DNA of 64,000 nt, taken from NCBI GenBank assembly GCA_027579435.1, contig JANBPK010000928.1, positions 60,293 through 124,292 on the forward strand. Direction: 5' to 3'. Numbering within the stretch: position 1 is the stretch's first letter; every line of letters begins with the position of its first letter. The position numbers and the translations under genes were made by a program. Of the stretch, positions 17,581 through 63,323 are shown piece by piece. Below the pieces are notes generated by a model. That model was given only the letters and a program-made list of their open reading frames with translations. It did not search any database and was not told the origin of the DNA. This DNA is from Candolleomyces eurysporus. Taxonomy: Eukaryota; Basidiomycota; Agaricomycetes; Agaricales; Psathyrellaceae.

Positions 17581-17599
17581 CATTGGCTCCGTAGTAGCT

Positions 17600-25841: not shown

Positions 25842-28630
25842 ATGGCGTTCTGGTGCGTATTCCGGTCTGCTCGGGCCCTCGTTTCAGCTCACTCATCCTC
25901 GTCCTCCCGCTCACCCGTCTACTCGTCCAATCCCACAATGTACCGCCCACAGGGCAAAGACACCCTTTTCANTTCTTTCTCCTCCTACTCACCTCAACCT
26001 TTCTCTCCCTTCCCGTACCTGCCCAATCCCTCCGACTCACCATCAATGCCACAACTACCGTCAACTCTCGTACCCCCGTCTTCTGGGCTCCCGAACCCTC
26101 TGACGGGCTAGGACAAGACGACAGCCTCCCACCATCGTCGGACGAAACCAGTTTGTTCGATCTGCGGTTCGTCAACGCGGATACCCAGGTGGACGAAGGC
26201 TTGGCCCAGGCGAACGTTGATTTTAGGGTCGCTCTTGCCAGAGAGGGTGGATTTGAGAGGAATGAAGTCGTTTTCAGGAAACCTGGGTGCGTGCATTGTA
26301 TTTCCTGTCGACCGATAGAGAGGCTGATGGTTATCGTCGTGTGCGTACTCAGGAAGTTCTTTCTAAGAGCTGTGAGCGGGTGGGTATTGTAGCGCTATTC
26401 TCTGATTTTCAGGCAGCTGACGCATCTCTTGTGTCGGTCTCAGACCCTCGTTCAGGACTATCGGTGAGAGCAACCCCGTATCTGTCCTTGCTGCTTCGTG
26501 AGTCCCTCTACCCAGCTTCCTCCTCGTCCCTTATCTCTCTGATACTAATCGCTTTTCTCGTGTAGGACAATCAAGCTCGGACCAACAACCACCTCATCTG
26601 CGGCACCTGGAGAGTCTTCGGCTGACTCGTACGTACTTCCTCCCACCAATCAAAACTCGAGCTCACTCCTTTTCCGTTCATGAATCCCACCACCTGTCCC
26701 GCGTAACAGCCCTTCAACCTCGGCCGCTTCCTCCTCTCGAGCCACCAACAAAACACCAATCATAGTCGGCGCTCTGATCGGCGCACTCCTCTTCATCACC
26801 CTACTCACTCTGCTCCTCCTTTTCTTGCTCAGGCGAAGGAGGATACAGAGGGAGGAGGAGGACGCGATCAGCAGGTTGTCGTTCCACCCTGAACAAATGG
26901 TCATCCCAAAGTCGGCCGTTAGTGGAGGAGGCGCACCGGCGGTGAGGAGACTATCATTGGCTGCACGGATTTGGGGTAGTTTCAGTGGCGCTGCCAGTGC
27001 TGCGAGTGTGAATCCCACTTCCAATACGACCCAGGCGCCGAATGCTGAAGATCGGGATCTCGAAGGTGGTTTAGGCTTTGCTGCGACCAGTGTGAAGCAG
27101 GAAGAGGCGCGCAGGCCTTCGGATACCACTTCCCTATCCAGCTACTCTTCGTCTTCGAACTCGACGCTCAGTACGACTGATACCGACCCTCACGCACAAA
27201 TTCACTCTCACCCTTGCCCTTCGACTTTCCCCAAGGCTCTTGGTCAAATTCAAACTCACGCGGACGACCGAGAGCTGTATGGAGCGAGGGAACGAGACCT
27301 TGAAGCCGCTCGCACTTCCACCGAACAGCAAAAGCAAAGGGACCTCGAAGCGGCCAGGGAGAGCGTCAACTCGGTCGAAGACCTCCGATNCCCCCCGTGT
27401 TTTGGACCGTTCAAGCACATCCAGCAGCGGAAGCAGCAGCAGTGGTCTTGGAGGAACCAACGGGACCGGAAGCAGCGCACTGTTGGGTGTTATTGCGTTC
27501 AGGAATCCGTTCTTGGTTTATAATCGGGATGGAGACGAGGAAGAGGCGACAGGATCAAGTTCGAAGCCGGAGATGACCCAAGTCACCAAAGTTCAACCAT
27601 CGATCTCGATCCCGCCTGCACCTCAGACCCCGCCTCCTCGTGTTCCTTCGACGACACCCTCAATCCGAGTTTTGCCTTCCCTCCCTGCTCCGACTCCCGT
27701 TCTGGCGGNCCCTGTTCCGGTTCCCGCCCGGCGAGCTCAGCGAACTGTACGTATAGCGGAGATTGAAGCGGAACGAGTGGGATCGGAGAGTCCACAGTTG
27801 CCGCCTGTGAGGTTCAGTCAAGTAGGGTTGGGGCTTGTGTTTTCGAAGACTAGTCCACCTGCCGCTGGGGCTACGGCTACGGCTACTTCAACCGTGGTCC
27901 CCGCCCCTGCTACTGCAACGAAGACGGCCCCACCTCCACCGCCACCGAGGAAGTCCAAGCCAACGACTACGACTACGACCACGACGGCGACGGCGACGAC
28001 GCAGAGCAGGCCTTCGACTCCTACTACTAGCACCCGGAACAGACCTCTCCCAACTCCTACCTTCCCCGCGTCCGTCTACTCCGCGGTAGCGGCTGCACAC
28101 GGTAAACCTCCCGCAGCACCCGTTCCCTCCAGACCTACGACTCCCAGTACCGCGAGACCGCTCCCTACACCCGGTCTAGCCATTACCGTTNCCCCTCCCG
28201 AGGACGCCATCCCCGCCTACGCCTGGTGTGAGCGGTGGGTTCGTTATTAGGGCCTTGCCGCCTGTTNCCCCCGATCACCAGCGAAGAAGGGTTGAGATCT
28301 GCTCCGGTCGCCCCTCCCACGTCTGCGTTCACCGCTCGCATTGAGCCACCCAACACCAGCACCGCAGGATCGACGAGTTCTAATAGGACGAAGAGGCAGC
28401 GGTACCTTGACCTCCGACTCTCCCAGGCGCAGAGCCAGCTCACGTCTTTGCGGACCAAGTTGAGGAGGGGCGAGATTGAGGAGGCTGTGGCGAAGAGGGT
28501 GATCAGGGATCTTGAGAAGCAGGTGGGGTGGTTGGAGGGTGGGATTCGAGATGGGGGTTGGGCCAAGGGCGAGAGGGATTGGATGGAGGAGACGGAGGAG
28601 GCCGGGTGGAGGAGGTGGATGAGGCCTTGA
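25842..28630 (+). CDS. Single-pass membrane protein with signal peptide, Thr/Pro-rich tail and coiled coil
   Basis: Five exons are proposed: 25842-25852, 25953-26286, 26413-26463, 26566-26628 and 26710-28630. The 11-bp first exon codes MAFW (last codon split), and the signal peptide continues as AKTPFSFFLLLLTSTFLSLP. The mature ectodomain (TINATTTVNSRTPVFW, FDLRFVNADTQVDEG) is followed by a Ser/Thr-rich stalk. A single membrane helix follows, PIIVGALIGALLFITLLTLL, and then the stop-transfer RRRRIQRE. The long cytoplasmic part is Ser/Pro/Thr-rich and ends in a coiled coil (LSQAQSQLTSLRTKLRRGEI) with a stop at 28628. The overall plan resembles fungal Skg6/Axl2-like surface proteins, an inference from architecture only. 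Ns at 25972, 27390, 28191 and 28267 break frame and their removal restores it; the N at 27709 must count as a base. Copies 1 and 2 of the duplication hold broken versions. Confidence 0.65.
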
Positions 28631-44815: not shown

Positions 44816-45240
44816 GAGGTCAGTTGCCACTTCGGCTTTTACTAATGGGCCACACCTTACTCCAGTGGTGTACGACACAGGTCACCAAGAACGGCATTTT
44901 GTCTCCTGGCATGGCGAAGCCTATACGGCAATTTACATCCCGAACAAAAAATCAGCCTTTTAATGTTACCTGCGCGCGGAATCTACTCATCCCGATCGTA
45001 AGAGTTGGGGACATGCATCGGCAAGGGGTGGATCCAAGAAATCCCGTTCGGATGCCGTTGAACGTGCTGCCGGTGGTTCCGATTCAGAGGACCATTTTGC
45101 ATTGCAAAACCAGGTGCAGCAAGGCATTTCAAGTGTCGATATCTGGCACTTTGACGCTTGATCCCATCAAAGTGTTTTCCCAAAGGGACCGACCGAGCCG
45201 TATTTGCTCAATTCGCTGTTCTTTAACTACCATCAGCATC
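44816..45240 (+). pseudogene. Unidentified decayed coding segment next to the Hsp70 fragment
   Basis: From ATG 44816 a frame reads LTPVVYDTGHQERHFVSWHG then AYTAIYIPNKKSAF and hits a stop. Shifted pieces follow (SSVDIWHFD, EPYLLNSLFFNYHQHL). The last piece ends shortly before the Hsp70 fragment. The family is unknown. It may be an old gene interrupted by stops. Confidence 0.25.
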
Positions 45241-45259
45241 TCACGAGCGTCTAATAGTC

Positions 45260-45703
45260 ATGGCAAGGATTGGAATTGATATTGGCACCCAGTACTGGTA
45301 GGCTTAGCACCTACGATTGAATCTTAGCCCAGCTTGACACGTTCCCCAAGTAGAGTCGCCGTTTGGCAAGACTCGCAACCAGTTATCGTCCCAGACGAGG
45401 AAGGGAATAGAAGCATTCCAAGCTATGTCTCCTTCGGTAGCGATGGACGACTTGTTGGGAGGAAAGCGAAGTCTAGACAATGTGCCAACTTGACAAATAC
45501 GTGAGTAGCTCTTGAATCGAACAACGCAACTCCTCGCTGATGCACGATGAAACGAAAGGCTGTATGGTGTTAAGCGCCTATTAGGAGGAGCCTTCTCTGA
45601 TCCGCATGTTCGAGAACTGGTAAAGACAGCACCGTTCTTGTGCATAAACAGAGATGAAAAGCCCTATCTTTCGGTTGGGCCGGTGGGACAGACGGAAATC
45701 TTT
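45260..45703 (+). pseudogene. Hsp70-like gene, first three exons only (truncated paralogue)
   Basis: Exons 45260-45297, 45351-45500 and 45559-45703 are 38, 150 and 145 bp, exactly as in the complete gene at 6173-8338. The introns fall at the same codons (after GTQYC and LTNT). The protein starts MARIGIDIGTQYCRVAVWQD, with later IPSYVSFGSDGRLVG and LYGVKRLLGGAFSDP. A donor-like GTGCGT follows TEIF, where the complete gene has its third intron, but no later exon exists: within about 60 bp the inverted repeat of the transposon begins. Only the start of the ATPase domain is left, so it cannot be a working chaperone. Confidence 0.85.
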
Positions 45704-45758
45704 GTGCGTACAAGGGCGAAAGATGTAATCAATCGATGATGCGCTGATAAGCAGATAA

Positions 45759-45872
45759 CCGCTTATTGCCAGGGTGCACCAAACCAGTGTCACCGGTTGC
45801 GCAAAACAGATGCAACCTGTTGCACTTTTCGCGATTGCTGGGCACGTGAGGTCATTTCTAAGTCCATTGACT
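45759..45872 (+). repeat. Left terminal inverted repeat of the element
   Basis: It reads CCGCTTATTGCCAGGGTGCA inward and includes CACCGGTTGCGCAA, GTTGCACTTTTCGCGAT and GGGCACGTGAGGTCA. The reverse complement of 61914-62027 carries the same blocks in the same order with scattered substitutions. Similarity continues weakly inward to ACCTTC[TC]GGCC[AC]ATACC near 45960-45980. Confidence 0.85.
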
Positions 45873-46139
45873 ACGTATGTACTGTATGTGCACTGGTAAT
45901 TGTAATGAATGTGCACTATACCTATAATACATATCATGACAAGGACAGAAGTCTCCATAACCTTCTGGCCAATACCATGGACGGTCAAGGGGAGGGTGCG
46001 AGGAAAATCAGGCTGAAGGTGTCTGGGCCTTCAAGCCCGTGAACGGAAGGGATTCCCGCCTTCAAGTGCACGGATCTCACNCCCCCGGCCGGGTGAGAAG
46101 CGAAGTCTGCGGGACCTTCGGTATACGGCAACAGAAGGT

Positions 46140-48250
46140 TGGGCAACCTACCATCCCAAGGGAAGGCCCCAGACCCTTCCAGAGATCGCCCAAATAGAAA
46201 ACGAGATCACCAAAAAGAGATCAGGATGGAAGTCAATCACAACTTTGAGCAAGGTAGATGGAAGGTCGTTCTGCCCTCTCCAGCGCTTTCAAGGCTTAGG
46301 TGGAAGGTTCAAATACCTACCTATGAGGCTCTAGCTTCAGTCTGGAAGTCAATTGAGTCGTCAGGAGAGGTGAACTGAAGGTCATTCTACCCCCCAACAC
46401 CACTCTGAAGAGAGGCAGACGGAAGGCAGAAATACCTTCCAGCTCTGTCCTAGCTTGACGCTTGAGGTAAATGTGACCTTCTAAAGAGGATGATGGAAGG
46501 TACTGGTGCCGTCCAACCCAGTGAAGAGTGGTCAATGGAAGGAGCAAACACCTTCTGGTCGGGTCCTGCATTAAGGTTGGAAGTAAACAAGACCGTCGAC
46601 ACAGGAGGACGGAAGATGTAATTACCTTCCGGTCGGGTCTGAGGTTCAGGCTGGAAGTCAATGTGACCCTCAGCTCAGTGGAGAGTGGTGGATGGAAGGC
46701 ATAAATACCTTCCGGCTGTATTCTGGGTAGAGGCTGGAAGTCAATGGGAGCTTTGAGAGAGGAAGACGGAACAGCGGAGAGTGGCCGGTGGAAGGTACGA
46801 GTACCCTCCGATCATATTCAGACAGAGGCTGGAGATCACGATGAGCTTCACAAAGTGAGAACGGAAGGTCGTCGCACCTTCCAAACACAACAAAGAGAGG
46901 CAGGCGAGCATTCTTAATAAAGCCTGGAAGTCAATGAGACCTTCGAGACCGGGAGACGGAAGGTACTCGTACATTTTAGCTCAGCAGAGAATGGTCGACT
47001 GAATACCTTCCGATCATATCTACATAGAGGCTGGAAATCATAATGACCTTCGCAATGCGAGAGCGGAAGGTCGTCATACCTCCCTATGTGACAAAGAGAG
47101 GCAGACAGCCATGATTGATCGAAGTCGGAAGTCAATGGGACCTTCGAGGAGGGAAGACAGAACAGCGGAGAGTGGTCGGTGGGGTATGGTCGGCGTGAAG
47201 TCCAAGGATGAAATTCATGAGCGACCCAAGGCATCAATGCGATCAATCATTGCGCTCAAGTGGTATCGATGAAGTGGAGACACCTTACACCTTAGGTCGA
47301 ATGAATCAAAATATCAAGCTAGATTTTCTTAGAAATAAAGCCCAAATCGCGGAGTAGGAAGGGACTATCTTATCTTATCTTATGGTCGCACTGATTAGGG
47401 GAGAGCCCAATGTATCAGTGTATCGGTGCAGCCATAAGATAAGATAAGTGTGGGAGACTCATGGCTGTGGTATTACATATTCGTGGAAACTGGTCATAAA
47501 ACTTCTTGATTTCACCCTTTGGGGTTTATTTCTAAGAAAATCTAACTCTATATCTTGATTTACAATTATATTTTATGTGCAAATACCTTATTTACGCGAC
47601 CTTAGGTGTCTCCAGTTTGCTGTTATTGAGACTTCAATTCGACCACTTGAGCACGGACGAATTGATCGCGTTGATGCCGCCTGGAAACTTGGGTTGCACG
47701 CGTGAATTTCATCCTTGGACTTCCCGCCAACCGTACAGTGGGGGGTACAAACATACCCGATCATATCCAGGTAGAGGCTGGAAATCGTAATGACCTTCAC
47801 AAGGCGAGAAGGGAAGGTCCTCCCACCTTCCAAACGCGACGAAGAGAGGGGCGAGCATCCTCTTGATTGAGGCTGGAAGTCAATGGGACCTTCGAGAGAG
47901 AGAGACGGAAGGTACCTTTACCTTCCAGCTCAGCGTAGACCGGTCGATAGAAGTTGCGAATACCTTCCGATCATATCTACATAGAGGCTGGAAATCACAA
48001 TGACCTTCACAAGGCGAGAATGGAAGGTCCTCGTACCGTCCAAACACGACAAAGAGAGGCAGGCGAGCATCCTTGATCGAGGCCGGAAGTCAATGGGACC
48101 TTTGAGAGGGAGAGAGACAGAAGGTACCTACACCTTCCAGCTCAGCAGAGTCGCTGTTGGAAGGTCCTGAAACCTTCCAGTCAGGTCAGTCGGATTTGAT
48201 ATACTGTAAGGAAGGTCATTCTGCCTTCGAGCTCAGGCTGTGAACGGATC
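46140..48250 (+). repeat. Left subterminal array of GGAAGGT hairpin units
   Basis: There are dozens of degenerate units of roughly 60-90 bp, each with GGAAGGT, a spacer and ACCTTCC. Examples are GGAAGGTACCTTTACCTTCC near 47908, GGAAGGTCGTCGCACCTTCC near 46863 and GGAAGGTCCTGAAACCTTCC near 48160. They are joined by AGGCTGGAAGTCAATGRGACCTTCGAGA. The paired half-sites can fold into short hairpins. The array has no coding capacity and is interrupted by a foldback insertion at 47188-47732. Confidence 0.85.
47188..47732. mobile_element. Nested foldback/MITE-like insertion in the left array
   Basis: The outer arms (about 47188-47296 and 47599-47732) are inverted copies: the left has GTCCAAGGATGAAATTCATG, the right CGTGAATTTCATCCTTGGAC. 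Inside them a second, perfect inverted repeat GATTTTCTTAGAAATAAA (47322-47339; partner 47525-47542) is flanked by TA on both sides. A third inverted pair (CTTATCTTATCTTATGG and CCATAAGATAAGATAAG) lies inside that. There is no coding region. The inner 225 bp look like a TA-targeting MITE within or as part of a larger foldback. Confidence 0.75.
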
Positions 48251-48477
48251 TCGGGGCCAAGGAATCTAGGCGCTTGCATAGGGGCTGGGTGATTGTTCCT
48301 TGCGCTATCTAACCAAGTTGTCGCATGGATCATCTTCTCAGACCTTTCCGTTGCGATGTTTGGCTACTATTCGACCGGAACGGTGTGCGATTGAAAACAA
48401 ATAAATTTGCTCCATCTCTGTAGCGTGCATCATTCTTTCGCCCTTCTTTCTTCCTCCCTTCCTTCCAATCAGTTACG

Positions 48478-49095
48478 ATGAAATCGTATACCCGTGAACA
48501 ATCTGGCGAGCATTTTCTCGCTCGCCAACGCGAGTCCCGCGGTCTCTACCTTTGGCACAGGTGGATGGCGTGCTCCGTCGCCTGGTAAGTTCTCACCTTG
48601 ACACATCATGGTCTTCAGTTCTGACAATTTTGCAGGCCTGCAGTAACAGCCGGAGTCAAGCTGCCTGCCACTGAAGTCTTAGCATGGCTTCATGCTCGAC
48701 GCCTTGTCTGGCGCTGCCTTTGTCCAGGCTTGGCGAAATTTTCAACATCCGACGATGGAGTTGTGACCGTTCAATGTGCTCGCGCATCCCATGGCGACGG
48801 CTGCCAATATTTCAGTGCGTGCTTCACTAAACTTTCCATTTTTCCGGTTTTAATCTAAGCTCCAGTGAACCTCACCGAGATCCAGGAGCACGCTACCTGG
48901 GTGGACCGTTATCCCCACTTTCCCGCAGGCCAGGATTTTGAGCAGTACACCGATGGTGTTTGTCGTGGCTGTAGATTCTACAGAGGCTATGATGAGCAGG
49001 GCTTTGAACGTATCGAGGCAATTTATCAGGGTTTTTGTGGGGAATTCTCGAGGGATAGGGCTCAGCCTGGAGACGATGTTGTTGACTTAGCTTGA
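48478..49095 (+). CDS. Cysteine-cluster protein of the element (173 aa)
   Basis: Three exons (48478-48584, 48636-48814, 48860-49095) give 173 aa with consistent phases. The N-terminus is MKSYTREQSGEHFLARQRES. The middle has a CLCPGLAKF, VQCARASHGDGCQYF cluster (C-x-C...C...C then aromatic pair), resembling a small GRF-like zinc ribbon. A second pair follows in GVCRGCRFYRGYDEQGFERI. It probably binds zinc and perhaps DNA; the family is not known to me. It is the first gene inside the left array, and its promoter is pyrimidine-rich (TTTCTTCCTCCCTTCC). Confidence 0.6.
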
Positions 49096-49269
49096 TTTTT
49101 CTACATATTATTACTGCATCTAAGATCATAATACTAGAAGAGTAGTGTGCTGGCCAAAGAGGCGTCGGAAATGAGTGACACCGATAAGGAATGAACTGGA
49201 GAGCAGAGACCGAGATCTCCGATCAGGCCCACTTCGAAATCAGGCTGCCGGGGAAGAAAGCAAGAATTA

Positions 49270-52200
49270 TTATTCCATTTTACGTAGACGAAGCCGATTC
49301 CAGGCAGACAGAAATACTTTTGTATATATGATAGCTCGCTCCTGACCCATATAGCTCACTGATTTCCGAATCCTTTTCAAACCGCTGTTCCCGCACTCTC
49401 CTGCGCTCGAATTGATAGAGACCAGTCGGGGATCAACGTTTGCATATTCGGAAAGAAAGGCTGCGGGGCTGCACTTGGTGTGTCCAGCACTATGGAAGTG
49501 GTCGATTGCGAAGAGCGTGTTCCTAAAAAACTCTGGCTCTCGTAGCATGCAATACGGACCCAGGGCGCATGCAAAGTCGTATATAACGCGTTTCGGAGCC
49601 ACCGGCCAGCGTGTTACCATTGCAGAAAACACATCGTTGCGGCCTTCGCTCTCGGGGATGCAGTGAAAGCCATAACAGACGGAGTGTGTACACCATGCCA
49701 CCATGATGCCTCCTGTCAGCCTTCGTTCCCCGTATTGTGTGTAGTACTTGCCACACCTGTCTCCTCGAGGTTTCGATATGTCTTTCTTCTGGTCGGATCT
49801 CAAACGGGGATAGGCAGGACGTTGTCGTACCTGGGGGAGACTGTAGAAGGCTCCGGTCTGACAACTCAATTATAAGGACATGTTGCTGCCGTTAAAATCA
49901 TTCTCTAGACGTACCACTTTCCAGTCGGAATCTCGAACGCCCATTCCGGCACCGTTTGACAAAGGGAGGTGCTCCACCGATAGCTCCTCAAGCACCACGG
50001 TGGCCCTCTTTGCAAGCCACTGCAGTAAAGGGACAAAATCGCCAAGGGACGATTGCCCCTTCAAGACGCGGTAAAGGCCAGGTATGGATAATAATTTCGT
50101 GAGGTGTTTGGGTTGCGGAGTTGCTATAAAATTGTTGAGATCGGCCAAGGCGGCGCCGTTGATCATTTGGAGTATAGATTCTTCCGCAGCAATCTATGGC
50201 TAAGGATTAGGTGACTCTTGATCGAATAAAAATTGACCTACCTGGAGAAAAAAACGGGTTGTCGCAGAAGGTGCTGATTTCTTTTGCGAATACGCAACCG
50301 CCCCATACGAATCTAGGAAAAGGGATGCAAGAGGCTCGCACTCCTTCCGAAGTCCTCCATGGACTACGTTTATCCGATTCAAATGCTCAGCAACTTGACT
50401 GGATTGACGATCAAGCTCCATCTGTGCCAGCGCAGCATCAGAAGGGGTGCCCTCAGGTATGCTATTTGCCGAAGCAGCCTCGAGCTCGAGCTTTGGTGCG
50501 TTCACAACCTGGCGAATAAGCTTGCGTAAGGCTGGATCAAGGAGGAGCTGCTGCCTAGGATGGTTCTTCACATTGAAACGCTGAATTGAAGTGGCGGAGG
50601 TCTGAGTGGGGGGGGGAGAGTGTTGAAGAGAGGTGTTTGCGTCCGAATGCCAGCGTGATACCGTCCCAAATAACAGTTTCAGGGTATGTCCCGCAACGCG
50701 TGCAACGCATATCATTGTCGAGAGCGAGCCGAGTAGCATAGGCGAACCAGATTGAACGGAATAAGTCGTCGCCCATAAACTCCGTACCAGAAACAGTGTA
50801 GCGATGAGTGACAGTTGCCACAAATGCATTGAATGGTGTTTCGGAGGTGACAAAAGCGAAAGTATATTCATCCAGGAGCTCGTGGCTAACGAGAATGGAG
50901 TTATTGTAATTGAATAAACCCTGCTCGCGGAGATCTGGTCCAATAAAACGTCGTCGAGTCTGAGGACAAGTAGGACAGGGCTGGACCTGAATTAATCCTT
51001 CATAGACGGTGAACAGAGTGAAGATGCGGCAACTCCGTTCGACAGTTGGTGAGTCTGGGTTATAGAAGGTTCTTCCACCAGGACAAGGACAAGAACCTCC
51101 GTTTTTGAGCGTCAGAGTAGAGACCGGTGGATAGCGGAAGGGCAGCGGGCGAGGGTAAAGAACCGGGTCATCTTTCAGACCAAGGGAGATTGGGGGGAGG
51201 ATGGGGGAATGTGAGACGGATTCCAGCCGGGTGAGTGAAGCTGTCACCATCATCAGAACTATGTCCTGACAGTGCAAACAAAGGGAAGACGTACCGAGCG
51301 CCCGTGTATTGTCAAACATAACAGGGTCCAACTCCTGGCCATCCTCTCCAATCACCGATTGGAACAACTCAAAAGCCTCTCTTACATGTACACATAAAAT
51401 GCCGCTTGAATGCTTCGAGCATTTCCATGCCCCTCCAGATGGTGAGACGCCGGTGTGGGTAACGATGGCACGTCCCTTCAGCTCGGAAGTGGATATGCCC
51501 TTCACGGAGAACATCGTCAAGAAGTCCGGGGAATTCGGGAGCTGCTGACGGAAGTAGATCGCAGCATTTGTATTGCCTTCAAACAATTAGATGGATGGTA
51601 ATCAAGATTGAGCGTTAGTACGTACCAGGCGCTTCAATCAGAGCAGTCATCGACAATAAAGAATCGACATCATACATGTTGAAAAATTCCTCATGTATGC
51701 ACAATGGATGCTGAGAGTGCCGGGGGCATGTGCAGGCGACATGGACCTCGTTCTCAATCTCCAGGTGCTGAAGGTGATACCAAATGTTCTATTGGTTGTC
51801 AATCGGCATGGTTCTCAGAATGCAAGAGGCAACACACGGTTGGTTTAGCTTGGCGTGAATCCCAACCTTGAACGACAAAGAGGGATTCATTAATGCAGTA
51901 CCACCCAGCGCCAAATGTTTCGACAGCCTCGATGTAGTCGGCGAGGTCGGCATCTGGATCCCGTTCCGCTGAGACCGGTGAACTGGGTTGAATGAATGCC
52001 GGAATTGAGACAGGGTCCATAGTAGACAGCGAGTCCCAGATCCCAACGTCCACATCCTCCGTTGCCAAGTCTTGGCTGCTTTGTCCTTCCAGGGTCGGCA
52101 AGACATCGCTTTTGGGTCGGGGACCCCGCTTTGACCCCTTTCTCCTCTTCAGGGGTCAATGGTACTCCTTCACAGCTTTGGTAGGTGAAACCCAAGTGTC

Positions 52201-52284
52201 TCCACTGGCTGCTTGCTCGAATAAATCAACAGGATACTCGTAATTCAAGTCTAAATCATCCCTCTCCAGTTGTCTGGGGGGCAT
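49270..52284 (-). CDS. KDZ-type transposase with cysteine clusters (damaged reading frame)
   Basis: A minus-strand chain of exons runs from ATG 52284 (MPPRQLERDDLDLNY) to TAA 49270. Blocks in order are an acidic N-terminus; a SWIM-like CTCPRHSQHPLCIHEEF; PCPTCPQTRRRFIGPDLREQ; GLFNYNNSILVSHELLDEYT; DMRCTRCGTYPETVIWDGIT; a helical middle (FLDSYGAVAYSQKK); and the RNase-H-like core. That core has IYDFACALGPYC (first Asp), FAIDHFHSAGHTKC (second Asp, His) and INSSAGECGNSGLKRIRKSV (Glu). This order matches the CxC4/CxC5 cysteine-cluster proteins associated with KDZ transposases (recalled, not searched). Lesions are an in-frame TGA at 52156-52158 after VKEYH, and one extra base in the nine-G run 50608-50616; shortening the run by one joins the two halves. 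It is divergent from the next gene, 326 bp away. Confidence 0.7.
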
Positions 52285-52610
52285 TGGAGGAGGTGAAAGG
52301 CGGGTGAAGGAGGAGGTGAGATCACAAAAATCGTGGCAGCAGAAAAAAACACATGGATCTGATAATGTTACCCATAGGAACAGCGTATGGAATTGTGACC
52401 GATAGATGTTGCGTCACCCGCACCCCAAAGGTCGTTGTTTGACCATGCGTTGAGCCGGACCATCTCGTTGCAGAGTTTGTCGTTCAACCATGCGTTGAGC
52501 CGGTCCATCTCGTTTTGAAATTGGATCAGTGTCCCAATGTGGATGTGTTCCCTGGTATTTAGATCAGGTACAATTGCTGGTGCGCAAGAGGTGAGCAAAC
52601 GTTCGTTGCC

Positions 52611-54091
52611 ATGCGCACCTCTCCCCGAAAGGTAGCAGCTGCATCCCACAAGCAAGTCACCAATGCCACCCCGATGAAGCGCAAAGCTCGTCAATGTCGC
52701 AGATGCCCGGGCAAACCGCTGCTGTCCGAATGCGAGCACAGTCGCAAGAAAACTGTATGTCGCTGTTCCTCATTTTATATCACAGTGCTGATCCCTCGAT
52801 GACGCTGCTCTCGTTAGGGTCCTGCCCTGCATCCGAATGGTTCAGGGTCAGAGGTTCAGCTTGGGACTGTGCCTACCCCATTTCAATCACCCTACCAGGC
52901 CCCGGCGTCCTTCGTTCATCACCAGCACTTAGCACAAGATCTCCCGGCAGCTCCTGCTGTGAATGCCGCCTCCGACTCGAATGCCGCCTTTCATGCGTAT
53001 GCATCCACAGTCGGGACTGTTGGTTACACTCAGGGCGCTCAGCTGGATTCATATGCCGCGAACGCTGCTGCAGGAGCCTTCCAGGCTCCTGGATTCATGT
53101 TCGATCCGACCTATCGTCAACCTTTCTTGCCTGGTGCCATGCCTCATGCCACCGGGCCCCAGGAGGCGCCTCCCCACTCTGGACAAGGCCTCACCCATCC
53201 TACCTGTNCCCCCAACGCTGTCTACATTGCCCATCGACCCTTCCCTAGTTGCGCAGTCCCATGGACAGTTGCCTCCAGGCATTCTACCTCCCCAGCCGGC
53301 CACCACGCCACCTCTCGCTACCGAGGAGGGATTGGACAACTCCAATATTGGTGAATACAGCTCGGAGGATTCAGAAGGTTCCGATGCCGAGGAGCCCAGC
53401 AAGCCATCAGCTCCGACAAAGAAGAAGCGAGTTTATGCATCTGACAAGAATCCTCACCACGGATACATTGAGGGCGTCGGTCGCGGCAATCGTATGATCA
53501 GTAAGTTGTCTTCAGCATATCGATCTCTTCCATTGGCAGCTGATGTGACCAGAAATGGCCCGCAAACGCAAGCTCAAGGTGGTCTACACCGATCAACACA
53601 CATCGTCGATGAACTGGAGGCGCCTTACCCGGGATTTCATGACCAGGGTCTGTCCTATGATTCACGTTTCTCCGCTATCCACTCACCTGTTGGTCTAGGC
53701 CGAGGACGTGGCCAATCGAACCGCTTCGTGGCTATATGTTGCCATACACAACCCTGCTGCCAGCCAGCCCTTCACACACTTTGCCTCTCGTCGGTTGCGT
53801 CTGGAGGCGCCGGATGATCTCCAGAAGATTCATCAGCAAGTCGCCTCACTGATGACCGTTCTCAAGCGCGCGGATAGGTCCCATAGCCTTCAAAGCGAGA
53901 AGGAGAAGGAAAAGGTTTTACAGAAGATGCAGGAAGCCACCGATAAAGCTGAGAAGGCGATGGAGCAAGTAGCGAAGGCTGAATCGGAAGCTCAAAGACT
54001 CAGGGAAGAGCTCGACGCTCGTAACAAGGTTTTGTATGACCTCTATATGTCTGCTCAAGCCGCTCAATCTCAATCCGACCATGGTAACTAG
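52611..54091 (+). CDS. Zinc-knuckle and coiled-coil protein of the element (437 aa)
   Basis: Four exons (52611-52754, 52818-53500, 53553-53647, 53699-54091) give 437 aa once the N at 53208 is dropped; with it the frame breaks in a C run. The N-terminus is basic with CRRCPGKPLLSECEHSRKK, a small Cys/His cluster likely to bind zinc. The middle is Ala/Pro/Gln-rich and then acidic (SSEDSEGSDAEEPSKPSAP). The C-terminal part has a conserved-looking block, MARKRKLKVVYTDQHTSSMN and WLYVAIHNPAASQPFTHFAS. It ends in a long coiled coil (KVLQKMQEATDKAEKAMEQV). It is head-to-head with the transposase, so the two may share a promoter. It may be a DNA-binding or assembly partner; this is inference. Confidence 0.65.
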
Positions 54092-54142
54092 TTTGATTGT
54101 AGTTACTGTTTTATTTTACGGAGTGAATATACTCTTTAATGA

Positions 54143-54927
54143 TTACACTTTAAGTTGTTCGGAAGTCTGAAAATCGAGTTGCTTCGCGTGAAACCGTTTG
54201 ACCAGATCAGCGGGTTCAACCATCGCTTTACAGAGCACGTCATCAAGCCAGTGGACAACCTCGCGGACTCTGGCAGCGGTATCCTCAATTTGCTTCCACT
54301 CCTCGCTAATTCCAGAAATCTCCTGCACCATACCCTGATACTTCTCGAGAGCGCGCTGAATCTTCCGAAATTCCAGCTCCTTCTCCATGATAAAATCTTT
54401 GGCCCTGGTCACGTACCCCTCCTCGTAATGAATCTCGAAGCCGACGCAAATCAACGATAGGTACCCAGATGTGCTCCTCTGAGCCAGAGCTCTTTCAAAT
54501 CTTTGTGATAATCGTTGAACCTGATCTTTAATGATATCGAGTTTTGATCTTGGACTGAAATACCAACACATTAGGGAGATCATGCAGGACTGGTGTGAGA
54601 GACGTACCGCTCCTCCCGCTCGAGGGGAACTGCATCCACTCGACCGTTGGACTGTGCAATTTTATTGACTTTCCTATACACGAGGCACAGTGAGTATGAT
54701 AGCTTAGAATGTATGTTGACACTTACTCGGACTCCAAGTCCCTTTTTTGCCTGGCAGCTCGTCGCCTCCGTCTTAGTAGAATGTCTCGATTCCTGGTCGA
54801 TACCGCTCGGTGATTAGCATAATTATGATGATGGATTAAGAACGCACTTCTCGTAGTGTTTCTTGCTCTTAAGTCGGTTGGCAGCCCTCTTTTCCTCAGG
54901 TGTGTGATACAGCTGTGGTCGACCCAT
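54143..54927 (-). CDS. MGRP-type basic/coiled-coil protein (207 aa)
   Basis: Four exons on the minus strand (54848-54927, 54727-54792, 54608-54673, 54143-54554) give 207 aa with all phases consistent. It begins MGRPQLYHTPEEKRAANRLK then KKHYEKNRDILLRRRRRAAR, a strongly basic N-terminus that recurs in many Agaricomycete genomes near repeats (recalled). The C-terminal two thirds are helical and charged (VTRAKDFIMEKELEFRKIQR, ISEEWKQIEDTAARVREVV). It could bind DNA like a basic region. It is convergent with the previous gene, with only 51 bp between stops. Confidence 0.65.
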
Positions 54928-56077
54928 GATGTAGGTGATGGTTGAGAGAAGAAGAGTGAAGTCAGAACTCGGTGAGAGTGGCGGCATCAGCTGTCTGACC
55001 GTTACTCAATTCTCAAAGTACTGACTGGATTTAAATGTTGAAATACCAACAGTGCCCTCAATATGTAGCTAATGAATGCTGTAGCATAATTCTATGTGCA
55101 GTGGGGGCCACCAAGCCTCATGTTCTCAATGCAATTGAACGCAGTTTACTACGTGCAGGCAGATGGCAGTCTGACTTTTACTGAACACCCAAGGCATTTG
55201 CGGATATTTCGGACTTATGATGGTCAATAGAGCTTTCTTCAAGTTCTCTTCAATGATGGGATATATTTTTATCTGGTCCCCCCAACTTAGCGGTGGCTGG
55301 TAAGCGTCGCAAAGTAGCAAAGTCGTCTAGAGATTAATGATTGCCAATGGAACTTAAGTGATGTTATGTCAGTTTCATGGACACCGTCTGACTTTTACTC
55401 TAGACAAGGATATACAATGAGAAATGGCTACGTACATACATTATTCAATTTTCTACGAATTATCATCATTTTTTAAGAGTTTTATGGTACATTTTTAAGT
55501 GCCAATAGCGCAATTCTGTTGTCGAGGAAAGGTCAGATTCTGGCGGCCATCAATTCATCATTCACAGTCTCAGGTTAAAGCCTGCGATCACAGCGCCAAC
55601 TCCTTCGTAGACTTGTCTTCTACCCCTCGTTCGCACCTCCTTGAATGCTTTGAGACATTTTGTAATGTTATAGGTACGCTGGACCCCCTCTCGGTTATCT
55701 TGATCACTACCTTGCCTCCCTGATGAGTTTCTCGTACCCAAGTTTCGCATTCATGCGGAGTTTGGCCCATCTATAATCACTGTATCACGTTTGGTTCGTC
55801 TTGCTCAGTTCGATTCAGTTTCACTTTGATTGAGTATTGCAACCATTTGTAGCAGCATGGTGCAGAAACCCCACGCGACCCCTGTTGTCTCGTTTCTAGC
55901 CGGTTGCCCGGTGTTCCGTGCCAGCCGCCTCTTTTGCATTCAGCGATCCGCTTGGGAGAATTCCTCCTGCTCCTTCCTTCCCTTCCCACCTCTTCTTTCG
56001 TCGTGCGTAACATATGTAAGTGAATATTTCCATTAGACGAGCTCAACTTGCTTATTCAAATTCCTGCCTAGATAACT
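54928..56077. other. Spacer inside the element
   Basis: A 64-codon minus-strand frame (55126-55320; contains WGDQIKIYPIIEENLKKALL) is the only candidate and has no recognised family. A short direct repeat, GTCTGACTTTTACT, occurs near 55168 and 55388. The last 200 bp before 56078 are pyrimidine-rich and promoter-like. Confidence 0.35.
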
Positions 56078-57033
56078 ATGTACGATTGGCTCGATTACCC
56101 ACCCGAAGCCATTTGGGACGAGTTAGAGCATCCGGATACTTGGCCCTCGTCCCAAGACAGGGAGCCCCCGGAGGATTGGGAATTCCCAGAGGATTGGGAG
56201 CCTCCGGAGGATTGGGAGCCTCCAGAGGATTGGGAGCCCCCAGAGGATTGGGCTGAGAGCAGCTTGGGGAATCGACTCACTAGGCCTCAACAAACGATCA
56301 AGAAATCGCAGCTCATGCAATGCGAGCCCTGGAGCTTCAAAACCTATGTACCGCCCCCACCTGGTTCACCTCTCTCCGCCCCAGACTGGACCGCACGATG
56401 GCTTCCCTTGCTTTCAAACAATATTTCAGACGAGGTCCGGCTCACCAATATCTCTATGCTGTTCGACGAGCTCGTGGCTCGTCCAGATGCTCAGGGTACC
56501 CGAAGGCTCCTCCAACGGGAGATGGCGTTTTCTTGGACGCCTTCACACAATATGCGTGGGTTCTATTTCCGCAGGGATCCGAGGAGTGGTACGACAGGTA
56601 CGTCTGATGTGTTCTATCTCCAGCCTTTCTATTGATTTTTATCTCTAAAGATCTCAGTAAGCTGCACTCGGCTAAGTCGGTGAGGATGGCTCGTTATTTC
56701 TGCCACGACAAACAAGAAAGGAAATATCGTAAATTCCTTGCGTGGGGAAAGCCTCTCATACATGACATCCTTTCGTGTTTCGATGATCTACGTTTAGCAG
56801 AGAAGGCCTGGCGCGCGATCTCTTTGAGAGAAGGGATGGGGGTGCCAACACGAGTTCCAGTTTGCGTTGGCCAGGATGGGTCGATCAAAAGGTTGGATTA
56901 CGACTTTGGTTGGGATCCGATCGACCCGGATGCTTTTTACACTAGGCTCAGAAAGCATGCATCCATAGTGACAACGTACATTGGCTACATACGGCGAGAT
57001 GGTTCATGGGTTCCAGATACAGCTACCATCTGA
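56078..57033 (+). CDS. Orphan protein with PEDWExP repeats (300 aa)
   Basis: Two exons (56078-56597, 56651-57033) give 300 aa. After MYDWLDYPPEAIWDELEHPD there are five tandem copies of a six-residue PEDWE(P/F) unit (about residues 29-57), encoded by an 18-bp DNA repeat. The rest has a Trp/Pro-rich part (WSFKTYVPPPPGSPLSAPDW, MAFSWTPSHNMRGFYFRRDP). The folded C-terminal region contains KFLAWGKPLIHDILSCFDDL and LDYDFGWDPIDPDAFYTRLR. No family is known to me. It sits between element genes on the same strand as the next one, so it is presumed cargo. Confidence 0.55.
56159..56252 (+). repeat. 18-bp tandem repeat inside the orphan gene
   Basis: Five copies of an 18-bp unit close to GAGCCTCCGGAGGATTGG are arranged in frame and code PEDWEP. 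Copies differ mainly at third positions, so the repeat is old enough to have drifted while keeping the protein. Confidence 0.85.
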
Positions 57034-57807
57034 ATTCTCCTTCTGTATAAAGATAGATCTTTCTTTGCGAGCGGCATGGAATGGATGGTAAAATCAGACC
57101 TTGGGATCTTTGGACTATCTTAAACACATTTTGAACCGTGATTTTCTGAAGCTTGCGCCGAATAAGCATGAGGCCAGGCACGGAGCCGCAAAAATGACTC
57201 ACATCTTCAAAAGTTCCATGCGGGTAGTCGACCAGCAGGCGTAAGGATACGCCGGTAGCTGGTAACGCCCGAAAGATGACTCGTATCCTTGAAAATACCC
57301 ATGTGGGTGGTGGATCAGCAGACATAGATAGCCCGATTGAGGGTGGATAAAATGTTTACGGGTGCGATAAGAAGCGCAAAAGATAGAAGGAATATGATAT
57401 TCCTGTCTTCCAGAACGTTCCTTTGCTATGGCAAGGGTATTCTTGTGCCTTCTGAGAGTTCTTGGATAGTCTCGTCTGTGTTTGGGCTCTCACTAAGGAT
57501 TCCAATTATGGTTGATCCGCTATGACGTCATGGCTGCCACCATGCTCTGCTACTGGTTCACAGTCCCAACCCTCAGGTTTCCCCCTGGCACTCCACCATC
57601 CGTTCCACATGGTGAAGATCACACGTAGCTGCGAGCGTGCGACGAAGAGAGGGTAACTCGGCATGCAATCTGCCGGAGGCCCCTGAAGCATAGAGAGGTT
57701 GAATATCCTTCGGGGAGAAGGATTGCCGTCTTTCTCCCCTTCCACCTCGCTTTCTCATCTTCCTTTTACGCTCTCAATCTCATCCCTTTGATACTTTGAC
57801 TGCTGCG
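57034..57807. other. Spacer inside the element with a short direct repeat
   Basis: Two diverged copies of a 45-bp segment lie at about 57197-57241 and 57279-57323 (both with ATGACTC, CCATG[CT]GGGT and GATCAGCAG-like blocks). No gene is supported. The last part is the upstream region of the next gene. Confidence 0.4.
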
Positions 57808-60027
57808 ATGGATTCTCCTCAAGACTCAACCAGTACCATGCGTGAGTTTTCCATCTTATCATACAGGCATGGTTGTGAACCTTTGTTCTAGTCGAGGCGA
57901 AGATGACGGTGTGGCCTAAAACCGTCAAGGAGATCAATCGTTTGCTCAAGTACGCTGAAAGTCATGCCGAAGACCTGACGATTGATTTGGCTGCTGCAGA
58001 GAGTGAGATTCATTTGACTATGTGTTGCGCTCCTGACTGACCCACACTAGCGAACTCCATTGACGGCGACACTGTTGCCGAGTTGAAAAGGAAATACGAA
58101 ACAGTCCTGGAGAACGTTGGAACCTTGCAGAAACTGTTGGAGACTAAGCGGAGGGGGAAATCTGGCAAGAGGCCAGCTCCGACCAACTTGGAGCAGCCCG
58201 CAAAAAGGACTCGCTCTACTGCCCAGAGCTCGGCCAAGACCTCCCCTCCCCCTACTGCCCCGAAAGCCAGAAACACACGTTCTTCCACTGCTAAGACAGC
58301 ACGTAAGCGTTCCCCTCCGGATGATGCTGGCACTAAGGAAGGAGTCATGAAGCCTCCGAGGACTGAGGACGACTCCGACACCGCGAAGCCTCTCTCCGAC
58401 ACTCCTATGTCCCCCAAAGCAGCTACAAAGCCCATGCCTGTCCCCGACGTTCCCAAGTCACCGAAATCGCTCGCCGACCCTCCNCAGTCGCCCAATCCAC
58501 TTTTCGACCCTTCCCAAGTCACCAGAAACCGCTCCGAAACCGCTCTCCGACCCTCCTCAGTTGNCCCAAACCTGCCCAAAAGTNCCGAGGAGCACAGGAA
58601 GACTAAGAGGAAGGTCCAGGCCTCCGACGGCTCAGAAACCGAGGAAGTATTCCCCGACCCTCCCAAACCGCGCAAGCCTGCCCAAAAACCGCAGACAAAA
58701 CAAAACTCCAGGAAGAAGTCTCAGCCTGTGGAGGACTCGGACCTGGAGGTCCCCAATCCCGCCTTCATAGAGGGCATGATTGAAATCGTGCGTAATGTCT
58801 GCTCCATCGCTTTGACTACTAAAAATTCACTAATGCTTAGGAAGAGGATGTCAAACCGGAAGCATCTAGTTCCGAGCAAGGACGAACCCACAAGGCAACC
58901 GCTGCCTCCTCCAAGGGTTCACACCACCCTGACATCTACGGCAACCTCTCCAAGACGCAACACAACGCCGTGCATCGTAAGCTTCAATTTCTTTTCCTCT
59001 ATTGCTATCGCTTATGCTGATCATTTGGAACCATCTAGAGGATGCATTGAACGATTACGAGGATTTCATCGACTACAACGTACCTCTTAGCAACGCTATG
59101 CGCACCTGGATCAGACGTGGGCAGCCAGTTCTTCCGCAGGCTGCATCCCATTCAATCAAGCTGGCGGCCTCCGTGTTCATACTTTCCAACGGTCGAACCA
59201 CCTGCCATCACCACAGTATCTCCAATCTCACACCAGTCAACGACTCCAACCCCAAATCGGGCCAGAAAGTCACCGGGATCCCATACCCGCCGCTGAAGAC
59301 CAAGAAAGGCATCCGCGAACCTAGCTATCTAGAACGCCCCATGCGTATCGATTCGCAGGGTAGAGTCAAGCCTCCCAGGCCGAATTCGTACAACCCCAAC
59401 TTTACGCTCGAGAGGGTCCTCAAGTTCTTTCCTGTTTCGAACGACGGTATCCGAATGCTGCACTGCGGGTGTGTCCTGAATGATGTCCTTGTCGACTTCT
59501 CCTACTGGAAGCGTACGTCGATTGTATCGCCTTCGACTTCTGCTACCGAAGGCCTTGCAGCCCCATTGAAGCCCCGCGAGCGCCTCTATTTGTGCACCAT
59601 CCTTACTTCACTCCACATAAAACTCGACTACCTGTTTCAATACGATACGCAGGGCAAGGAGCATTCCAGCGAGGCTCGAATGGACAAATGGGTTGACGAC
59701 ATCTGTGCCCAGATCGACGGGATGGAAGCTAGCGCATCGAAGAAGAAGAAAGCTGGATTGCCAAAACGACGTCTTGAATATGTGGAGGTCCCCGATGAAG
59801 TTGAGGATGAAGACGAGGATGTGCTCAAGATGGGTAGGCCTGCGGGAAAGCTATCCCTTCCTGACGTCGATGGGGAATATGGTGTTAGTGGCAAGGGCAA
59901 GGACAAGGAGATTGCCCCCAAGGATCTCTATAGTGACGGTGACAGTGATTCCGATGCCAGCCAGCCTGTACAATCTCCATCTTCCCTTAGACGCCTTTCA
60001 AAGCTTGACCTGGACTTGGATGAGTAG
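57808..60027 (+). CDS. Large orphan protein of the element (667 aa)
   Basis: Five exons (57808-57841, 57892-58002, 58051-58787, 58841-58976, 59039-60027) give 667 aa when the three Ns (58484, 58564, 58584) are dropped. Removing all three keeps the overall frame and also turns the stretch between them into a coherent Pro-rich repeat (KSPETAPKPLSDPPQ, like the preceding KSPKSLADPP). The N-terminal part is helical (VKEINRLLKYAESHAEDL). The middle is basic and Ser/Pro-rich. The C-terminal domain (DALNDYEDFIDYNVPLSNAM; ERVLKFFPVSNDGIRMLHCG; RLYLCTILTSLHIKLDYLFQ) looks globular. It ends with acidic stretches and KLDLDLDE. There is no recognisable enzyme motif. It may be a nuclear, chromatin-type partner; this is inference only. 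Confidence 0.55.
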
Positions 60028-60229
60028 AGTAGTTCTATATCTGCATGTACGACACACTCTGAATTTAATACCCATTCCGCTGAAGATCTGATTAAAAAAT
60101 TTCCATCTTCCTTTCTCAAAATGATGAGCTCATTCTAACTCAAATCTCAGCAACAAGTTATCCTAACTCGCGTCGAGAATGGTGGAGATATTGATAATCG
60201 ACTAAAGTAATCTGACCTTCTATTGACGT

Positions 60230-61870
60230 ACCTTGAGTTCAGATCCCCTTCCTTGCGCTGGAAGGTAAAGGCACCTTCCAGACTCTGTTCTGAGGTCTAC
60301 AAGCTGTTCCAGTCTGATGTCACGACCCGGCTGGAAGGGAGAAACACGGAAGCCCGGAAGGTGAAATCACCTTCCAATATAATTGCCTGAAGGCATCCAT
60401 GGCTTCAAATCCCGGTTCATCTTTCAATTTTGAACTGATGACTTGGCCAGAAGGCAATCCCATCTTCTGTCACACCAACTTCCACTTCCAACTCCTGACC
60501 TGCCTAGAAGGTATTTACACCTTCTGGCTTTACATTTCAAGAGACTGGAAGGCATTCACATCTTCCAGTCCTGTCTCTCTGTTGGATTAGNAAGGTATGC
60601 TAGCCTTCCATCTCTCTCTCTCAAAGGTCACATCAACTTCTGGTTCCAACTTCTGANCCCCCCTAGAAGGTATTTACACCTTCCAGCTTTGTGTTTCAAG
60701 AGACCGGAAGGCATTCACACCTTCCAGTCCTGTCTCTTTGGTGAGTAGGAGGGTACACTCACCTTCTGTCTTCCTCTCTCAAATGTCACATTGACTTCCA
60801 GTCTGGACCCAGGACCCACCTGGAAGATACCTGAACCTTCTGCCCTTGTATCTTCAAGGACTGGAAGGTGTTTGTGCCTTCCACTCCCATCTCTTTGTTG
60901 AGTTAGAAGGTACATCAACCTTCCATCCCTATCTCTCAAATCCCAGATTGGCTTCCAGTCCAGACCCAGGACCTGCCTGGAAGATATTTGAATCTTCCAC
61001 CTCACGTCCTTGAGCACTGGAAGGAATTTGTGCCTTCCACTCCTGTCTCCTTGTTGAGTTGGAAAGGTACATTGACTTCCGTATTTCTCTCTGGAAGGTT
61101 GCACTGACTCCCAGTCCAGACTCAGAATGCACCTGGGAGGTAATTGCGCCTTCTGCGCTCATGTCTTTGACAACTGGAAGGCATTTGCACCTTCCACTCC
61201 CATCTCTCCAATGGCTCGGAAGGTACGTTGACCTTCTGGTGTTCTCTCTTGAAGGTCACATTGACTTCTAATCGTGATTCACAACCCACCTGGAAGGCAT
61301 TCACACTTTCCTGTACTGTCTCTCTGTTGGATTGGAAGGGATGTTGACCTTCTGTCCCTGTCTATCAAAGGCTAGATTGGCTTCCAATCCTGACTCAGGA
61401 CCTGACTGGAAGTTATTTGTACCTTCCATCCTTGCCTTTCAATGCACTAGAAGGCACCCGCTCCTTCCGTTGACCTCTCCCTGTTCAGCTGGAAGGTACA
61501 ATGACCTTCCGTTCTTCTATCTCAAAGCTCACATTCACTTCCAGCCTCAACCCAGCAACCAACCGAGATGTATCTTCACCTTCCAATCACCTCCGTCGAA
61601 GGCCATATTGACGTCCGGTCCCAACTCACGACCCAACAGGAAGGTATTTGCCCCTTCTAGCAACCCCAGTGACCGGGAAGGTACAATTCCCTTCTTCCCT
61701 CCTCCCTCGAGGGTGTTATGAACTCCGACCCAGGACCTGACTGGAAGGTCCCACTGACTTCGGATATCACCAAATATAGACTCAGGAGGGTGGAATCACC
61801 TTCCAATTACATGCTTTCTGTGGTATGGGCCGGAAGGTTGTAGCGACTTCCGACCTAGTCGTGACATGGA
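60230..61870 (-). repeat. Right subterminal array of GGAAGGT hairpin units
   Basis: About 20 units of roughly 75-85 bp occur, each with a stem such as GGAAGGCATTCACACCTTCC (near 60707), GGAAGGTGTTTGTGCCTTCC (near 60860) or GGAAGGCATTTGCACCTTCC (near 61176). They are followed by A[CG]TCCTGTCTCTTTGTTG- and CACATTGACTTCCAGTC-like spacers. It is the inverted counterpart of the left array, with more regular spacing. Ns at 60591 and 60657 lie here. Confidence 0.85.
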
Positions 61871-61913
61871 ACGTAGACACACTATATTCAGTACTGTTAT
61901 AGTGTACACATCT

Positions 61914-62027
61914 AGTCAATGCACTTGGGATTGACCTCACGTGCCCCGCGATCGCGAAAAGTGCAACCGGGTGCACCTGGCTTGCGCAACCGGCGATCCT
62001 AGTTTCGTGCATCCTGGCCATCAACGG
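61914..62027 (-). repeat. Right terminal inverted repeat of the element
   Basis: The reverse complement begins CCGTTGATGGCCAGGATGCA and carries CGCCGGTTGCGCAA, GTTGCACTTTTCGCGAT and GGGCACGTGAGGTCA in the same order as 45759-45872. Length is equal to the left copy. Confidence 0.85.
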
Positions 62028-62049
62028 CTGCCCCGTCCGTGTCCACCCC

Positions 62050-62580: not shown

Positions 62581-62951
62581 CTCGAGAGCTCCAGTTCCGC
62601 TGAGCTGCGGATATCGCATCAAAGTCAAGATCATGGCCCAAGTCGTGCCAACTTCTTATGATAAACGCTACGAATTTATCCACAGGCTCTATCGTTTTCT
62701 TAGTTAGCTGTATTGACAAACGTAGCGTTCCTGTGTTGATAGATCGACCCGTGCTATTTGTTTCTATATCGACTTTAGCTCAAGGAGTGTGCGCTGCGGC
62801 GAAGTAGGCTTCAATGGTCATTTGATTTTCCAACAAGTGAGCGACTGTGGGTCCCCTTGAAGGGGGTACAAGCAGGGATAAATATAGACAAGCATTCCTA
62901 CCGGGCAATGCGCCTCACTGCGTAAACCTTCGCACCCACACACCACTGAAC

Positions 62952-63323
62952 ATGGGCTTCGCAAAGTCCTCCACCGATATATCGATCGACGCCTCGACCA
63001 CCGATCTGAGTGCCAACTGCCGCACCAAGAGCGGCGGCTCAAGGCGATCTGTGATGAGGCTCAACGAGTATGTGGGCAACCACGACGGTCGTTTTGTGGC
63101 GGGAGGCAAGGACTTTGGGGCCAGTGCTACGAATATCCGCTTGATTCAAGATACCAATAACCATACCACATATCTCGTAGCAAACCTCCGTGACCGATCT
63201 GGGTCGGTAAGGCCGACGCTGTTGGACTTGAACCCTATCATTGCCAACATGGATGGTCGCCTAACGTATGTGGGACCGTTGCATACGGTGAGTGGGTTGA
63301 TTCGCCGTCAGTGCTGGTCCTGA
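62952..63323 (+). CDS. Cyanovirin-N homology (CVNH) domain lectin-like protein
   Basis: The frame from ATG 62952 gives 123 aa. Two tandem CVNH half-repeats are visible. The first has FAKSSTDISIDASTTDLSAN then MRLNEYVGNHDGRF, the second has SATNIRLIQDTNNHTTYLVA then LLDLNPIIANMDGRLTYVG. The LxxxIxNxDG signature appears as LNEYVGNHDG and LNPIIANMDG. CVNH proteins bind high-mannose glycans; fungal members are small intracellular or secreted lectins of unclear role. There is no signal peptide. A TATA-like ATAAATATA lies about 75 bp upstream. The C-terminus may instead splice at a GTGAGT near 63288. An in-frame ATG at 62847 would add an unrelated N-terminal extension, so I prefer 62952. Confidence 0.85.
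   Translation: MGFAKSSTDISIDASTTDLSANCRTKSGGSRRSVMRLNEYVGNHDGRFVAGGKDFGASATNIRLIQDTNNHTTYLVANLRDRSGSVRPTLLDLNPIIANMDGRLTYVGPLHTVSGLIRRQCWS

Follow-up and report, generated by a model that had tools for sequence, protein, structure and literature searches.

Do two inverted termini lying about 16 kb apart in a mushroom genome bound one complete transposon with captured cargo, or do they belong to something else? The question arose from the initial annotation of a 64,000-nt window of Candolleomyces eurysporus (contig C1220:60293-124292; all coordinates below are those of the window), which described a 16.3-kb cargo-carrying element with inverted ends, inward hairpin arrays and six genes, including a KDZ-type transposase. 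We conclude that the window probably holds a member, pieced together from two copies, of a large KDZ-type (CxC4) cut-and-paste DNA transposon family. Five genes of this family, here named A (the transposase) to E, recur together in other copies.

Ends, target duplications and a composite copy

The two ends of the window element are inverted copies of each other (BLAST, 115 bp, 82.6% identity, E = 5e-22; 45759-45887 versus 61899-62027, 129 nt, 81% complementary), as had been described. Alignment with other copies placed the true termini about 7 bp further out, at 45752 and 62034. By end comparison and copy alignment, the left terminal inverted repeat (TIR) spans 45752-45887 on the forward strand and starts with CAGATAAC..., and the right TIR spans 61899-62034 on the reverse strand and finishes with ...GCTGCCCC (GGGGCAGC when read inward). 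Among the aligned ends of the family, left-type ends begin with CAGATA and right-type ends, read inward, with GGGGYAG. The inverted ends are imperfect and about 120-140 bp long.

Searches of the same 65.85-Mb C. eurysporus genome matched 14 places with the left end and 9 with the right end, the window's own two counted in each. A chance inverted repeat was rejected, as other copies bear the same ends. The initial annotation had asked whether such ends also occur without the core genes. Ten of the 15 end places from both searches adjoin genes A-E (two of the ten are the window's own). No intact core gene was seen beside the ends on C254, C541 and C880, contigs that stop there, or on C1215, which breaks at an N; the end on C1256 is degenerate. 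On C1215 (66260-67990), the left end and about 1.2 kb of array halt at this single N, and the sequence beyond is unlike that of the element copies, probably representing another assembly break within an element. On C513 (1831-4946), the end beside gene E has a left-type terminus, CAGATAACC, and gene E contains stops there. From this terminus, the two end types may be exchangeable.

With the degenerate C1256 end excluded, 8 left-type ends were paired with 6 right-type ends, and the 8 bases flanking the element on either side were compared in all 48 combinations. In five of these pairs the identity covered exactly 8 bases, and in none did it extend to 9, compared with 7 of 269,206 in a displaced-position control. 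The matching pairs were window left/C469, C845/window right, C746/C254, C1215/C541 and C880/C64, while the ends on C26, C513, C1238 (left type) and C1285 (right type) had no partner. TIRs and an 8-bp target duplication, both of which are present here, are features of Zisupton/KDZ1-type KDZ elements. For three pairs, the joined flanks matched an unoccupied homologue over their full length (C469:43405-43780, 93%; C588:24391-24947, 78%; C1230:18313-18815, 93%). The 8-mer occurs once in the C469 and C588 sites and with one mismatch in the C1230 site. The C469 site is a copy of an Hsp70-like gene (PF00012, 7.8e-9, with a peptide assembled from two frames).

The reading of the window unit as one complete-looking 16.3-kb element did not survive this comparison. 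The 8 bases outside its ends differ, with CTGATAAG on the left (45744-45751) and GTCCGTGT on the right (62035-62042), and each matches another contig: the partner of the left duplication lies on C469 and not at the window's right end, and the right duplication finds its partner in the left end on C845. Both of these contigs break off within gene E, with ends that correspond in the window to about 58.6 kb for C845 and about 58.4-58.46 kb for C469. Therefore, the window copy looks like two half insertions that meet within gene E, at about 58.4-58.6 kb. The joint interval (58380-58620, where the two contigs end) contains a proline-rich repeat and Ns at 58484, 58564 and 58584. Since the window sequence is identical to neither C845 nor C469 at the joint, its exact position is not fixed. 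The right array of the window is 72% identical to the left array of C845, as expected for two ends of one insertion. By adding lengths, the element made of the window's left part and C469 would measure about 19 kb, and that made of C845 and the window's right part about 15.5 kb. The copy in the window is probably inactive; its transposase has an in-frame stop at 52156-52158, a position at which all 12 other copies covering it encode an amino acid.

Misassembly is the simplest and most likely cause of the 16.3-kb unit. The same junction could also be a real recombinant, in which ectopic recombination between two elements inside gene E swapped chromosome arms. Target duplications reveal exchanged ends, and identity between C26 and the window is 97% over the left end and 82-88% beyond it, indicating that natural copies may be mosaic. 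However, the assembly lacks the reciprocal product, both C845 and C469 break off at the joint, three of the 25 Ns in the window cluster within 101 bp there (58484-58584), and other copies too are split over contigs or broken (C746/C254, C880/C64, C1215/C541). We therefore regard a recombinant as unlikely. Draft assemblies can fuse such elements, so that "complete" copies need a target-duplication check. Sixteen of the 25 single Ns in the window sit immediately before a run of at least four identical bases, as if from flow-type sequencing; the three at the joint do not.

Dyad arrays inside the ends

The inward arrays were confirmed, and their "hairpins" resolved into a 20-bp dyad, GGAAGGT-N6-ACCTTCC. 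We searched for the two arms with one mismatch allowed in each and spacers of 0-14 bp. The spacer was 6 bp in 146 of 154 sites (10 arrays on 9 contigs), and 6-bp-spacer dyads were present in every one of the 10 element-end arrays examined. Dyad scan and alignment located 15 dyads in the left array (45890-48240) and 20, with the 6-bp spacer, in the right array (60201-61900). The 11,960-bp core has none; shuffled sequences gave means of 0.04 (left array), 0.12 (right array) and 0.26 (core). The left flank of the element in the window has no dyads, and the first 40 kb of the window contain one site, with a spacer of 7, as chance predicts.

Distances between dyad centres cluster at 42 and 73-74 bp; in the right array, 14 of the 18 distances below 200 bp are 40-43 or 74-75 bp. 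A phasing scan over all 130 distances, in which tandem dyad copies are not independent, peaked at 10.5 bp (R = 0.66; 0.55 at 14.5 bp and 0.48 at 8.0 bp). With each of the 47 distinct distance values taken once, R was 0.33 at 10.5 bp, a value reached by 18 of 20,000 random sets. This suggests that the sites lie on one face of the helix. RNA hairpins were rejected as an explanation, as a constant 6-bp spacer with variable letters suits a protein dyad better. The arrays are probably protein-binding sites.

Such binding could serve silencing, replication or chromatin boundary formation instead of transposition. The arrays lie inside the inverted ends, appear longer than a synapsis site would be expected to need, and have spacings near whole helical turns. 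In the window, however, they occur only at the two ends of the element, with no dyad in the core, and the 6-bp-spacer form recurs in all 10 end arrays, as element-specific sites would. We consider a purpose outside transposition rather improbable and favor arrays that act in pairing the ends.

The left array is interrupted by a small insert at about 47184-47736, with inverted ends of 34 bp (91% complementary) and inner 43-bp arms (88%). The stretch 45759-48240 is 97% identical to C26, which also has the insert, seen in a matching gap of about 745 bp that separates its dyads.

Five genes that recur together

Gene A (49270-52284, reverse strand; defined by frames, Pfam and copy comparison) combines a SWIM-like CxCx(8)CxH motif, CxC4 and a KDZ-type catalytic region. 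CxC4 (PF18717), which Pfam describes as associated with KDZ transposases, scored 148.8 bits (cut-off 26.9), in line with the KDZ-type transposase of a large DNA transposon named in the initial annotation; the KDZ match itself is below threshold (see below). The SWIM-like motif, CxCx(7-8)CxH, is kept in 14 of 14 matched copies, window included. With the C-terminal part of a hand-spliced relative as query, 229 relatives were found among the 7996 closest candidates scored, and the best 120 of these 229 name many mushroom genera. A KDZ scan of seven chosen relatives, four of them picked for a listed PF18758, gave two above the cut-off (P0094, P0120), three below it, and two without a match at E up to 0.1. 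A PDB sequence search with the CxC4 relative P0016 gave no match at E up to 1.

The other genes were delimited from frames and copies. Gene B (52611-54091, forward strand) has, by eye, an N-terminal CxxC...CxH zinc-knuckle-like motif and a conserved C-terminal coiled coil, separated by a low-complexity middle; an N at 53208 breaks its frame. Gene C (54143-54927, reverse strand) has a basic N-terminus starting with MGRP, followed by what is, by eye, probably a helical domain. Gene D (56078-57033, forward strand, one intron) contains repeated PxDW motifs and then a conserved domain without known relatives. Gene E (57808-60027, forward strand, several exons) ends in a conserved domain with CxxH and HCGC, and the chimeric joint falls inside it. 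A sixth gene, F (48478-49095, forward strand, hand-spliced; DNA and protein comparison), is optional. It is absent from the closest copy, C26, and among the contig pieces compared, weak relatives (29-32%) are confined to C675 and C180, where they lie beside A. In the Pfam scans, no family passed the cut-off for F.

The proposed conservation of a six-gene set holds for A-E, which other copies carry in the same order and together with the same ends, and not for F. The evidence comes from DNA comparison, hand-spliced proteins on contig pieces and genome-wide protein searches. Each of the 18 contigs that carry two or more genes belonging to a single copy has the order and strands A-, B+, C-, D+, E+ (C1220, C26, C845, C1062, C746, C991, C96, C1238, C927, C675, C180, C626, C279, C759, C983, C1142, C1194 and C278). 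In the genome-wide protein search, A (CxC4 exon) was present on 18 contigs, one of which, C162, ends within A. B was present on 16 contigs, 15 of them with A (exception C1142); C on 15, 14 with B (exception C159); and D on 14, 12 with A, the other two (C1194 and C278) having E instead. The C-terminus of E was found on 11 contigs. C1220 and C983 also carry A of the same unit, and C278 carries D; C469, C64, C1285 and C513 reach the contig end within the element; C279 also has A, necessarily of another copy; and the remaining three are C1226, C1133 and C1292. With the lone C on C159 and the E on these last three contigs left out, no linked genes were seen at unrelated conserved loci in this genome.

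We also estimated selection with Nei-Gojobori ratios of nonsynonymous to synonymous substitution (dN/dS) between the window and other copies, using unsaturated pairs. For A, values were 0.02-0.03 in the catalytic exon, 0.09-0.44 in the middle and 0.05-0.14 in the CxC4 exon; for B, 0.27-0.47 in the N-terminal, 0.25-0.44 in the middle and 0.04-0.16 in the C-terminal part. C gave 0.08-0.26, D 0.19-0.41, and E 0.24-0.38 in the N-terminal and 0.19-0.27 in the C-terminal exon. All five genes are under purifying selection. Co-divergence was analyzed for B, C and D, as few copies hold both A and E. Distance matrices of the CxC4 exon correlated with those of the B C-terminus (r = 0.92, 0/5000), C (r = 0.86, 0/5000), D1 (r = 0.80, 44/5000) and D2 (r = 0.54, 13/5000), and the B C-terminus alone correlated with C at 0.82. 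In B, C and D, divergence tracks that of A.

Because purifying selection acts on B-E as well as on the transposase, and B, C and D co-diverge with the latter, the term "cargo" is disfavored, and B-E fit element functions better than captured host genes. They could still be true cargo in a transposon that needs only A, passengers of host origin with a benefit, or no effect, for the mushroom. D and E, which evolve faster than A, gave 8 and 6 matches, respectively, confined to C. eurysporus and C. aberdarensis plus one JGI/lgn sequence for D (the search requires shared 5-residue words, making absence elsewhere weak evidence), whereas A occurs in many genera among its best 120 of 229 relatives. 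Two A contigs with room for B, C247 and C1061, have no detectable B. Against this, constraint on the B C-terminus and on C is close to that on the CxC4 exon, both co-diverge with A, the set recurs in subfamilies near or at synonymous-site saturation, and no host pathway family, whether metabolic, resistance or other, was matched in the Pfam scans. We judge true cargo to be improbable.

Since the same gene set, ends and order are found in other copies, together with target duplications, the data support A-E as a travelling unit. Nothing was found in favor of A-E being chance neighbours in a repeat-rich region; this reading is refuted by the copies, with the same genes, order and ends on many contigs, and can be dismissed as extremely improbable.

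Proposed mechanism and relation to known elements

Eukaryotic DNA transposons usually have one gene, sometimes two. The KDZ and CxC families were reportedly defined by Iyer et al. in 2014. CxC4-KDZ transposases are known as protein families, and gene A resembles them in its CxC4 match and in having long relatives in many mushroom genera (best 120 of 229); new here is the surrounding element, with its ends, duplications and partner genes. The family is real and unusually gene-rich for the KDZ type, the superfamily itself being known. Starships are giant fungal multi-gene elements that use a tyrosine recombinase, the gene of which lies near one end. The element resembles them as a giant fungal element with several genes, and a Starship was rejected, as no tyrosine recombinase was found among the open frames scanned.

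Closer relatives are described in the literature. KDZ1-3 of Cryptococcus neoformans are about 9-11 kb long with TIRs of 139-241 bp (KDZ1, about 11 kb, 241-bp TIR and 8-bp duplications; KDZ2/3, duplications of 4-8 bp) (PMC12810828). The C. eurysporus family is likewise large, with TIRs, 8-bp duplications and a transposase made of a cysteine cluster and a KDZ-type region; in contrast to these CxC1 elements (PMC12810828), it has CxC4, a length of about 15-19 kb and four more conserved genes. Kyakuja, Dileera and Zisupton are fungal KDZ elements that encode TET/JBP dioxygenases; Laccaria Kyakuja has 7-bp duplications, CA..TG ends and no TIRs, and Zisupton has 8-bp duplications (PMC12730594). Our family shares with the TET-carrying elements the extra conserved gene content and with Zisupton the duplication length. 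Kyakuja membership was rejected given the 8-bp duplications and long TIRs, as was a TET-carrying element, with no TET/JBP match by Pfam in 19 window frames (17 in the element) or 6 proteins (4 hand-spliced, 2 relatives). KDZ elements are further reported in MAT loci (PMC12510652), KDZ and Plavaka make up about half of the DNA elements in Marasmius oreades (PMC8290104), CxC5/CxC6 and CxC2 clusters occur in Pleurotus (PMC7641404) and Zisupton in nematodes (PMC9297572); hAT activity in M. oreades (PMC9674265) is not relevant here. The excerpts of open-licence literature on KDZ, CxC and passenger genes contained no description of the A-E set or the dyad arrays.

In the mechanism that accompanies our reading of a KDZ-type family, A would cut at the ends and insert with an 8-bp stagger. 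A dimeric DNA-binding protein encoded by the element, most likely B, C or the zinc-binding part of A, would cover the dyad arrays and help to bring the ends, about 15-19 kb apart, together. D and E would serve transposition, copy maintenance or evasion of silencing. Tentatively, we propose a more specific five-component system as a possibility short of probable: a KDZ transposase and four dedicated proteins, one of which would coat helically phased palindrome arrays at the two ends and build a large end-pairing complex by which the 15-19 kb element would move.

Several observations weigh against our main reading, a KDZ-type family with the mechanism described first. The KDZ (PF18758) match of the window A exon is 17.0 bits, below the Pfam cut-off of 26.6; a hand-spliced A relative has no KDZ match at E up to 0.5, and PF18758 is precomputed on 5 of the best 120 of 229 relatives. 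No copy was seen whole; C983 is the only single-contig candidate, and its ends were not seen. The evidence for mobility consists of insertion footprints. Because the first unoccupied site lies on the same contig (C469) as one partner end, and the query of the second (C588), in repeated sequence, matched 48 places, some spanning the whole query at 69-71%, the sites are probably paralogues and not alleles. The two A contigs without B belong here as well. A and all B blocks correlate at r = 0.35 only (139/2000), and all B blocks and C at r = 0.14 (486/2000), possibly as coverage of B in some copies is limited to its conserved end. A benefit to the host could instead account for the selection on B-E. 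B-E have no Pfam family above cut-off, profiles of D and E found no solved relative in the PDB at E up to 1, and AlphaFold models were poor (mean predicted local distance difference test score, pLDDT, of 40 for a relative of E and 48 for D), with nothing at E below 0.001 in Foldseek with the D model. The roles assigned to D and E are therefore guesses.

With five selected genes and apparently purpose-built binding arrays at both ends, the family offers a defined setting in which to ask whether a multi-protein machine is required by large KDZ elements. It also provides a CxC4-KDZ element, with transposase relatives across many genera of mushrooms, for which real ends, target duplications and unoccupied sites are available.

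Outside the element, the left flank (45196-45750) looks like a degenerate Hsp70-like gene: its stretch 45196-45510 is 73% identical, inverted, to 8087-8402, which neighbours an Hsp70-family frame at 6465-7940 (PF00012, 3.8e-92). Just right of the element lies a CVNH (cyanovirin-N-like) frame (62841-63323; PF08881, 8.5e-22). Diverged repeated blocks at 11600-26400, with pairs 73-87% identical and several colinear, suggest a duplicated gene cluster.

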